DNA of 35,291 bases from Nitrososphaerota archaeon (GTDB taxonomy: Archaea; Thermoproteota; Nitrososphaeria; Nitrososphaerales; Nitrosopumilaceae), in contig VBPL01000017.1 in NCBI GenBank assembly GCA_005877205.1, positions 1 through 35,291 on the forward strand, written 5' to 3'. The notes beneath the pieces were generated by a model that was given only the letters and a program-made list of their open reading frames with translations, ran no database searches and had not been told where the DNA came from. Shown one piece after another: positions 2,096-9,502 of this stretch. Made by a program: the position numbers and the translations under genes. The first letter of the stretch is position 1. Each line of letters begins with the position of its first letter.

Positions 2096-3565
2096 TCATG
2101 GTCTACCTTTTATCAAAGCTTTGACCTTACTGTTGAGACCTTCAAGTGCTGCTCTGACTTCATTTGTTCGCTTTGTTGTTCCTACCGTATAGGCTCGAAT
2201 TTTTCCCTTCCTGTCTGCAATCATGCGTTGTTGTTCGTGTTTACCTGATGACCCTTGTGACCTTCGACTTTCAAGTGATGACTCGGGAGTAGTAGATTGG
2301 ATAATCTTATGCAAATCTTTTGCACTTATTTCATTGTTAGAAATAACACGATTCACTTCAGAAACCGATAGGTCGGATAACTTCTTCCTTGAGGTTGAAG
2401 CGATTTGTACCAGTTGACCAACAATTCCGTGAGCAACTCTAAATGGAATTCCTTTTCTTACCAAATTTTCTGCTATATCAAGTGAGATTGAATAGCCACT
2501 GTCTATTGCTTGACGTAATTTCTTTTCGTTTACTTTCATTGTCTTGAAAATTGAGTTGATGACCAATAATGAAGATATTATGATTTTAGATGTAGGCCAT
2601 ATTGAGATCTTGATCTGTTGAAGATCCCTATTGTAACCGGATGGAAGCCCTTTCAGATTTGATAGCACTGCTACATGATATCCTATAACCTGAGCAGTCC
2701 TTCCACGAATTAGCTCTAGCACGTCCGGGTTTTTCTTTTGTGGCATAACACTTGATGTTGAAGTAAACTTGTCAGATAATTCAATGAACGAAAATTCCGA
2801 AGAAGACCATATGATTAGATCTTCTGCCAATCGACTAAGGTTTGTCATCAAAATAGCAGCATCCCCTAAATATTCTGCTGCAAAGTCACGAGATGTTGTT
2901 GCATCAATTGAATTTTCGATTAGACCTTTGAATCCGAGCATTTTTGCGGTTACCTGCCTATCTATTGGAATACTTGTACCTCCGACGGCACCTGCTCCCA
3001 ATGGAGACTCGTTTACTCGTCCATATGCAACGTAGAATCTATCAAGATCTCTGAAAAGTGCGTCCGTGTATGCAAGAAGAAAATGTGAAAAAAGTCCCAC
3101 CTGAGCTTGTTGAAGATGAGTATACAATGGCATAACTACACGGTGGTATTTTTCTGCCAATGTTATCAGAGTCCCTATGATTTCATTTAGACAGAAGCAG
3201 ACAGTGTTGATATCATCACGTATTTTCATGCGTATGTCTAGTGTAATCTGATCATTTCTTGATCTGGCGGTATGCATTTTCCCTCCTGCTTCCTTACCGG
3301 CTTTTTTGATTACCAGAGATTCTATTAGCTCATGAATATCTTCTGCATCTGATTTTTTAGAGAGATTTTTCTTTTTCAATTTCTCAAGTGCAGTCAAAAT
3401 TTTTGCTGCTTCCGGTTTAGTGATGATTTTATTTTCTAAAAGCATTAGAGTGTGTGCTTGACTTCCCAAAATGTCATACAAAACGATTTCAAAGTCATCA
3501 GAAATTGATGAAAGAAATTCAAGTGTGCTCTCGTCCAATTTTCCTTTTAATCTTGATCTGTACAT
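2096..3565 (-). CDS. argH: Argininosuccinate lyase
   Basis: Cleaves argininosuccinate to arginine and fumarate, the last step of arginine synthesis; a cytoplasmic homotetramer in the fumarase/aspartase superfamily. Signature motifs are present: HTARSRND in the N-terminal third, the catalytic-loop signature STSSVMPQKKNP near the middle, and an acidic/Ser-rich C-terminal region. The ATG at 3565 (MYRSRLKGKL) is preferred, giving 489 aa. An in-frame start 33 nt further up (3598) would overlap the TATA box at 3586-3594. With the chosen start the box centre lies 25 bp upstream, so the mRNA is probably leaderless. The same box serves the divergent gene at 3616. The 3' end abuts a transposase remnant. 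Confidence 0.95.
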   Translation of the reverse strand: MYRSRLKGKLDESTLEFLSSISDDFEIVLYDILGSQAHTLMLLENKIITKPEAAKILTALEKLKKKNLSKKSDAEDIHELIESLVIKKAGKEAGGKMHTARSRNDQITLDIRMKIRDDINTVCFCLNEIIGTLITLAEKYHRVVMPLYTHLQQAQVGLFSHFLLAYTDALFRDLDRFYVAYGRVNESPLGAGAVGGTSIPIDRQVTAKMLGFKGLIENSIDATTSRDFAAEYLGDAAILMTNLSRLAEDLIIWSSSEFSFIELSDKFTSTSSVMPQKKNPDVLELIRGRTAQVIGYHVAVLSNLKGLPSGYNRDLQQIKISIWPTSKIIISSLLVINSIFKTMKVNEKKLRQAIDSGYSISLDIAENLVRKGIPFRVAHGIVGQLVQIASTSRKKLSDLSVSEVNRVISNNEISAKDLHKIIQSTTPESSLESRRSQGSSGKHEQQRMIADRKGKIRAYTVGTTKRTNEVRAALEGLNSKVKALIKGRP

Positions 3566-3585
3566 AAATTTAGGAATTAGAATGG

Positions 3586-3594
3586 TTATATATA
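3586..3594. promoter_or_regulatory. Bidirectional TATA box shared by argH and the SufT-like gene
   Basis: The sequence TTATATATA contains the self-complementary octamer TATATATA. Its centre (about 3590) is 25 bp from the argH ATG (3565, minus) and 26 bp from the ATG of the plus-strand gene (3616). Archaeal TBP boxes sit about 26 bp before the transcription start. One box can therefore position leaderless transcripts in both directions, and no other good TATA box fits in the 50-bp gap. Confidence 0.7.
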
Positions 3595-3615
3595 GCATAG
3601 ACGCTTTTTTGATTT

Positions 3616-8759: not shown

Positions 8760-9044
8760 CTATGAAGTGTTTCTCTTTACTTCAATTTCTATAGTAGAAA
8801 CATTCCTAGAACGTCCATCCTGTGACTGAAGCTGTTCTGAACCAATCTTGATGTTTCCGATGGAATAGCCGGCATTTTCTGTTTTTCGTGCGACTATCTG
8901 AGCTACGTCAACCGCACGGCCGATACTAAGTCCTCTTGCCTTGATTGAGATTTTTGGTTGGTTTGCCAGCTGTATGAGCGTAGAAGTAACATACGCCATC
9001 AGAGGCTTCTTACCGATGTAGATAGTTTCTCTAGATTCTGACAT
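8760..9044 (-). CDS. albA: Alba chromatin / RNA-binding protein
   Basis: A 94-residue Alba (Sso10b) family protein that coats DNA and RNA as a dimer. The start of the Alba fold is clear: ETIYIGKKPLMAYVTSTLIQL, including the Lys pair at the position of the nucleic-acid-contact and acetylation site. SIKARGLSIGRAVDVAQIV follows, then a hairpin and a final strand (VSTIEIEVKRN). The length is standard. Its ATG lies 26-27 bp from a self-complementary ATTTAAAT box (9067-9074) that also fits the divergent gene at 9098, so both appear to be leaderless genes sharing one TATA element. A U-rich terminator follows. Confidence 0.94.
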   Translation of the reverse strand: MSESRETIYIGKKPLMAYVTSTLIQLANQPKISIKARGLSIGRAVDVAQIVARKTENAGYSIGNIKIGSEQLQSQDGRSRNVSTIEIEVKRNTS

Positions 9045-9066
9045 GCGGTCCCTACAATTTGGGATA

Positions 9067-9074
9067 ATTTAAAT
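9067..9074. promoter_or_regulatory. Bidirectional TATA-like box shared by alba and the secreted-protein gene
   Basis: The self-complementary octamer ATTTAAAT is centred at 9070.5. The alba ATG (9044, minus) is 26.5 bp away and the ATG at 9098 (plus) is 27.5 bp away. The 53-bp gap has no other good TATA candidate on either strand. Confidence 0.62.
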
Positions 9075-9097
9075 CTAAGAATAGAAGAATTGTGGCA

Positions 9098-9502
9098 ATG
9101 AAGTTTTTGTTGCCGTTGTTTTTTGTTTTTGTAATTGGCGCTGGTTCAGCTTACGGATATGGAGAGGTTTCTACATTCGATTTTAAAATTGTCAATTCTT
9201 TGGGTGAAGAGATCAAATCTCCAGTGGTCGATCAGCAACTAAATCTACAGACATCTTTGAAGAACCTGAGTGGAAAAAGTGTTGATTGGACTTACATAGT
9301 ACAAATAATTAATTCCGATGGTGCTATTGTTGATTTAAAATACGCAGCAGGGTCCCTAGTAAAAAATCAAACTCTAACAGCTGCGCTTTCTTGGACTCCT
9401 CAATCCAGTGGAAATTACAAAATTGAGACATTTGTCTGGGATAACTTGCGTGACATAGATCCACTTGGACCAATGTCGACTTACATCATAACTGTTACTT
9501 GA
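9098..9502 (+). CDS. Secreted protein with an Ig-like (CARDB-type) fold, 134 aa
   Basis: The first about 20 residues are a clear signal peptide (MKFLLPLFFVFVIGAGSAYG), so the protein is exported. The remaining about 115 residues alternate hydrophobic and polar as beta-strands (FDFKIVNSLGEEI, LNLQTSLKNLSG, DWTYIVQIINSDG, ALSWTPQSSGNYKIETFVWD). This resembles one bacterial/archaeal Ig-like or CARDB-type domain. No enzymatic motif is visible, so binding or surface adhesion is possible but unproven. ATG 9098 is preferred to a GTG two codons upstream because it matches the TATA spacing. The tRNA-Ala gene ends 8 bp after its stop on the opposite strand. Confidence 0.72.
   Translation: MKFLLPLFFVFVIGAGSAYGYGEVSTFDFKIVNSLGEEIKSPVVDQQLNLQTSLKNLSGKSVDWTYIVQIINSDGAIVDLKYAAGSLVKNQTLTAALSWTPQSSGNYKIETFVWDNLRDIDPLGPMSTYIITVT

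Follow-up and report, generated by a model that had tools for sequence, protein, structure and literature searches.

A probable two-way core promoter built on one TATA box between alba and a gene for a predicted secreted Ig-like protein in Nitrososphaerota

Archaeal core promoters that act in both directions from one TATA box have been described in Pyrococcus. As set out in the passages of PMC6640164 considered here, the Pyrococcus TATA box is near-symmetric with TTTAAA as its most conserved part, TBP binds it symmetrically and TFB sets the direction of transcription; in Pyrococcus furiosus, BRE-TATA-BRE motifs lie midway between start sites ~50 bp apart, and a 49-bp example at PF1918 was confirmed in vitro. 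Bidirectional promoters with competition between polymerases are likewise described for bacteria in the sections considered of PMC12825309 and PMC10268837, both of which cite Warman et al. 2021. A literature search covering few subscription papers returned no Thaumarchaeal start-site map or bidirectional-promoter study naming alba/sec, the gene pair analysed here, and a search for start-site papers on Nitrososphaera viennensis found none.

Within the 35,291-nucleotide stretch of Nitrososphaerota DNA that was analysed (the window; contig VBPL01000017.1), alba, encoding the archaeal chromatin protein, occupies 8760-9044 on the minus strand, and the gene for a 134-aa predicted secreted Ig-like protein (sec) occupies 9098-9502 on the plus strand, with its ATG at 9098-9100. 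The 53-bp gap between them (9045-9097) contains the strandless octamer ATTTAAAT at 9067-9074, centred at 9070.5, and the bases between this centre and the start codon number 26 for alba and 27 for sec (spacing is counted throughout as the bases between the centre of the octamer, or of TTTAAA, and the start codon). The coordinates confirm the position, self-complementarity and mid-gap placement of the octamer put forward in the original prediction. When start codons are taken as start points, one TATA box lies midway between starts about 50 bp apart, as in archaeal shared-TATA promoters, and its centre stands ~26-27 bp before each start codon, as in leaderless archaeal promoters, pointing to leaderless starts at 9044 and 9098. 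An in-frame GTG at 9092 offers an alternative start for sec; since none of 30 sec-bearing relatives has a start codon that corresponds to this GTG, whereas a start codon corresponding to 9098 is present in all 30, 9098 is preferred.

Judged from its sequence, the gap is very probably a bidirectional archaeal core promoter in which one TATA box serves two leaderless, or nearly leaderless, genes. TBP would bind the single box in either orientation, and TFB would set the direction of RNA polymerase according to which of two flanking BREs it contacts. The conserved sequences flanking the box may accordingly be read as one putative BRE per direction. Initiation 26-27 bp from the TATA centre would then yield leaderless or nearly leaderless mRNAs, for alba from one strand and for sec from the other, and the two initiation complexes would be mutually exclusive.

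Orthologues of sec were found in 27 of 151 family genomes, distributed over 4 of 22 genera, and in 26 of these 27 loci the sec start codon stands exactly 27 bases from the TTTAAA centre. The exception is L141, where the octamer now reads ATTTAATT and the palindrome is lost; its sec frame carries an extra N-terminal stretch, and the sec start, beginning MKFL, lies far downstream of the box. A second set of 80 alba loci, overlapping in species with the first, was assembled, of which 77 were usable after three (L021, L033 and L074) had been dropped at contig edges. The alba ATG is located 26-28 bp from the box in 77/77 usable loci. In 30 of them sec stands opposite alba, and all 30 contain ATTTAAAT, embedded in a conserved core, GGATAATTTAAATCTAAGAAT (9062-9082 in the window), that covers the TATA box and both flanks at no less than 90% identity over 21 columns. 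In 30/30, a start codon (ATG in 20, TTG in 7 and GTG in 3) stands exactly 27 bp from the centre of TTTAAA, and the alba ATG in the same loci is spaced at 26 (21 loci), 27 (7) or 28 (2). The sec start codon is thus variable in identity and fixed relative to the TATA box, a pattern that an mRNA without a leader would need. TTG and GTG would be unusual start codons for a leaderless mRNA; in L139, which has a TTG start, the base before the start codon is A, so that a one-base leader is possible there. Two of the 30 sec frames are shortened, to 28 aa in L014 and 88 aa in L025. The sec-bearing loci form one clade and therefore do not amount to 30 independent tests; at the level of sequence, the alba/sec arrangement is kept at fixed spacing across related genera.

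Alba was identified by a PF01918 match of 57.9 bits against the Pfam cut-off of 25. The sec protein stays below the cut-offs for DUF7490 (18.5 vs 27 bits) and CARDB (12.7 vs 22.7). A structure model built from 27 orthologues (pLDDT 82, pTM 0.71) comprises an N-terminal helix and a beta sandwich. Among solved structures, its matches include a CARDB domain from Pyrococcus and carbohydrate-binding domains of Wzt (TM by query 0.54-0.67 for these), CARDB structure 3idu giving a TM of 0.57 by query. On the strength of this modelled CARDB-like fold, and with scores below the family cut-offs, the protein is described as Ig-like without a family assignment; its secretion is predicted from the hydrophobic N-terminal helix. 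The 27 rows of the sec protein alignment (A1) represent 26 of the 30 sec-bearing loci plus the window, L014 and L025 being left out for their short frames and L020 and L053 as near-copies. Domains similar to sec also lie inside very long frames in L090 (G000:C3:7946-8254; 37% identity, 1769 aa) and L093 (G000:C45:84812-85117; 32% identity, 1010 aa), which suggests a wider family of surface-protein domains.

A second shared-TATA divergent promoter is proposed at 3566-3615 in the window, between argH (start 3565, minus strand) and a SufT-like gene (start 3616, plus strand), with TATATATA at 3587-3594. The longest argH ORF starts at 3598, but it is the start at 3565 that is conserved; the latter lies 25 bp from the centre of the shared TATA box, and with this start the gap measures 50 bp. 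Among the best 30 of 57 genomes with a SufT-like match (61 searched), all 30 loci have a gap of 48-52 bp with a near-invariant core, ATGGTTATATATAGCAT, and conservation on both flanks. The earlier proposal that the alba/sec architecture is repeated here with a different TATA sequence is thus borne out, provided that argH starts at 3565. The two loci are alike in the shared TATA box and the conservation on both of its sides; they differ in the core (TATATATA as opposed to ATTTAAAT) and in distribution, argH/SufT occurring in every one of the 30 family loci examined and sec in a single clade. The sequence conservation at argH/SufT supports the shared-box reading independently.

Recurrence of the layout was assessed in 2,173,029 bases (2.17 Mb) from eight family genomes including the window. 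Genes were called by coding score alone, without promoter information, and some called starts are wrong (argH at 3598 rather than 3565, for example); a TATA-like A/T-rich region was visible at -24 to -30 before 498 codirectional starts. The original prediction had anticipated a peak in the distances between divergent starts near 50-54 bp. Such a peak exists among 395 divergent gaps (11 at 50-54 bp, 3 at 45-49 bp and 2 at 55-59 bp), but the count alone is weak, with P ~0.025 against the flanks at 35-49 and 55-69 bp and windows near 76 and 113 bp equally unusual. Since the bulk of divergent gaps falls at ~65-120 bp, the ~50-bp layout is that of a minority. The position of the palindrome was more telling. 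Allowing coding-supported alternative starts, an A/T-only self-complementary hexamer lay no more than 3 bp from the midpoint in 15 of 37 pairs with a possible gap of 48-56 bp, against 4.03 (sd 1.77) expected from dinucleotide shuffles, and 0/200 shuffles reached 15; among the 15 are the two pairs of the window, which gave rise to the test, and a pair that is probably an orthologous duplicate. Gap classes of 20-28, 29-37, 38-46, 58-66, 68-76 and 78-86 bp were at expectation. With the excess confined to gaps of 48-56 bp, the layout recurs, in a few percent of divergent pairs. What the original prediction called a recurring promoter layout is therefore real (15/37 vs ~4 expected) but modest in extent, the excess being ~11/395 pairs or ~3 percent. 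One shared-TATA candidate was seen in two genera (L112:13836-13887 and L195:9349-9399), with TTTAAA at the midpoint of a 51-52-bp gap; by eye, the genes look like two aminoacyl-tRNA synthetase genes, and from their N-termini, also by eye, the two pairs are probably orthologues.

The self-complementarity of the octamer, earlier taken as a signature of two-way use, did not hold up in that role. Among divergent genes whose gaps, at 90 bp or more, are too long for a common box, A/T palindromic hexamers are most frequent 24-28 bp before the start (538 starts), so palindromic TATA boxes are normal here even when unshared, and ATTTAAAT is present in 12 of 16 Nitrososphaeraceae without a divergent ORF. 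The palindrome as a mark of two-way use was rejected on both grounds: A/T palindromes commonly serve as one-way TATA boxes, and alba carries ATTTAAAT where nothing diverges from it. Exceptional conservation of the alba promoter was rejected as well, neighbouring promoters being similar: conservation of the 14-bp core is comparable at prpB, padR, sdhA and argH/sufT (names by eye, except alba, argH and SufT). Conserved 14-bp cores being ordinary at neighbouring promoters, conservation is necessary and by itself no proof of two-way use.

Three other explanations of the alba/sec gap were weighed. If the box were a one-way alba promoter, sec would be transcribed with a leader, either through read-through or from its own promoter inside alba, and the sec start near the TATA box would be coincidental. 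The conservation of the motif and both flanks at alba in lineages lacking sec is what such a promoter would show. A leadered mRNA needs no fixed spacing, however, and the exact 27-bp spacing was kept despite start-codon turnover in 30/30 loci, and in 26/27 of the other set, which makes this explanation unlikely. That the octamer is a chance product can be practically dismissed: although the gap is short and A/T-rich, and a palindrome would fall at the midpoint of ~4 of 37 such gaps at random, each of the 30 usable relatives with sec has conserved the octamer at fixed spacing, which speaks against chance.

The symmetry could alternatively serve a dimeric protein rather than TBP, the octamer then being an operator, for Alba itself or another factor, that overlaps the TATA box. 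Conservation across two families, including TTATCC downstream of the TATA box, is compatible with an operator. The 11-mer TTTAAATTATC, on the other hand, occurs 3x in its own 1.56-Mb genome, of which the window is contig C46, compared with 2x for its reversed sequence as control; these counts reveal no regulon, and a regulon built on this 11-mer was rejected on them. An alba paralogue of 84% identity on C15 lacks the element, 14-bp cores are conserved to a similar degree at prpB, padR, sdhA and argH/sufT, and the extended element is asymmetric beyond the octamer. An operator consequently appears improbable, more so than a one-way promoter.

Loci without sec bear on the origin of the two-way arrangement. 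In the 47 sec-less loci the octamer is CTTTAAAT (43), ATTTAAAT (3) or GTTTAAAT (1), located 26-27 bases from the alba ATG. Ten of them were read in detail; in nine, the first divergent ORF (178-197 aa) starts 49-114 bp from the alba start, and in the remaining one, L065, no divergent ORF was found. In L030, L038, L041, L047, L049, L080 and L083, from lineages lacking sec, alba faces a gene of ~183-188 aa at 84-114 bp, whose repeat-like sequence appears HEAT-like by eye. The TATA flanks are conserved on both sides in sec-less loci too, which means that any constraint on the putative sec BRE is not specific to sec. At alba in the 16 Nitrososphaeraceae, the octamer is ATTTAAAT in 12 and CTTTAAAT in 1, and 3 are without TTTAAA; none of the 16 has a divergent ORF of at least 70 aa within 150 bp of alba. 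Because ATTTAAAT stands at alba where nothing diverges, the octamer is probably older than sec at this locus and is not in itself a two-way mark. In several Nitrososphaeraceae, a same-strand ORF upstream of alba resembles the end of argH by eye. Four more loci from the window's own family were read, and three of them keep the motif or something close to it; L301 reads GTTTAAATTATG, outside the motif search pattern, and in L299, one of the four, a divergent ORF starts 34 bp from the box centre, not 27.

In an SdhA tree of 68 rows rooted at its midpoint, the sec loci all lie to the same side of the root branch, where the only sec-less rows are L021 and L033, labelled 'no' because these loci end at contig edges. 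The closest matches to the window's alba protein come from loci titled Thaumarchaeota and Nitrosotalea, and the SdhA tree places the window inside that clade. Within Nitrosotalea, locus L031 of N. devanaterra carries sec; Nitrosopumilus and Nitrososphaera are without it. In G116 (genus g1), which has no sec match, locus L265 appears from its length of 1786 to hold almost no sequence beyond the alba start. The simplest reading of these sequence distributions is a single gain of sec in the Nitrosotalea lineage, with loss elsewhere as the alternative. Relaxed constraint in a sec-less sister clade would fit the frequency of CTTTAAAT (43/47), and was barred by the outgroup result together with the confinement of sec to a single clade. 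The box is thus probably the old promoter of alba, common to Nitrososphaeraceae, which captured sec once in the Nitrosotalea lineage. The element would primarily be alba's; the ancestor of the Nitrosotalea clade would have acquired sec on the reverse side of it, and the 27-bp distance would have been maintained from then on. A more tentative extension, which we hold to be possible and rather doubtful, is that alba's ancient symmetric promoter was a landing site on whose cryptic reverse side sec was captured once, exactly 27 bp out, and that the two genes, competing for a single TATA box, have had their outputs linked ever since. If true, sec would be a traceable example of a gene captured by a latent bidirectional promoter. 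As sec is clade-limited, lineages with and without it can be compared to ask whether symmetric promoters are able to recruit new genes. Starts pinned 27 bp from the box also provide a sequence-only route to leaderless starts and to correction of gene starts, as for argH here.

Shared-TATA two-way promoters are thus already known from Pyrococcus, and alba/sec is likely a newly described, well-conserved instance, whose proposed mechanism draws support by analogy from the in vitro evidence in Pyrococcus. Both systems have one TTTAAA-type TATA box midway between starts ~50 bp apart; the BREs on its two sides and the setting of direction by TFB are described for Pyrococcus and putative at alba/sec. 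As far as the considered passages on Pyrococcus go, the reverse product studied is mostly antisense RNA, and leaderless transcripts do not predominate; at alba/sec, by contrast, both products are protein-coding and apparently leaderless, and several genera have conserved the pair. The present case would therefore extend shared-TATA promoters from Pyrococcus antisense RNA (PMC6640164) to conserved protein-coding pairs in ammonia-oxidising archaea. A likeness also exists to the bacterial and archaeal promoters of Warman et al. 2021, in which, by the accounts available here, symmetry of the core lets polymerase be loaded both ways, in some cases giving two mRNAs; the bacterial cases share a -10 element with starts most often 18 bp apart, whereas alba/sec shares a TATA box with starts ~53 bp apart.
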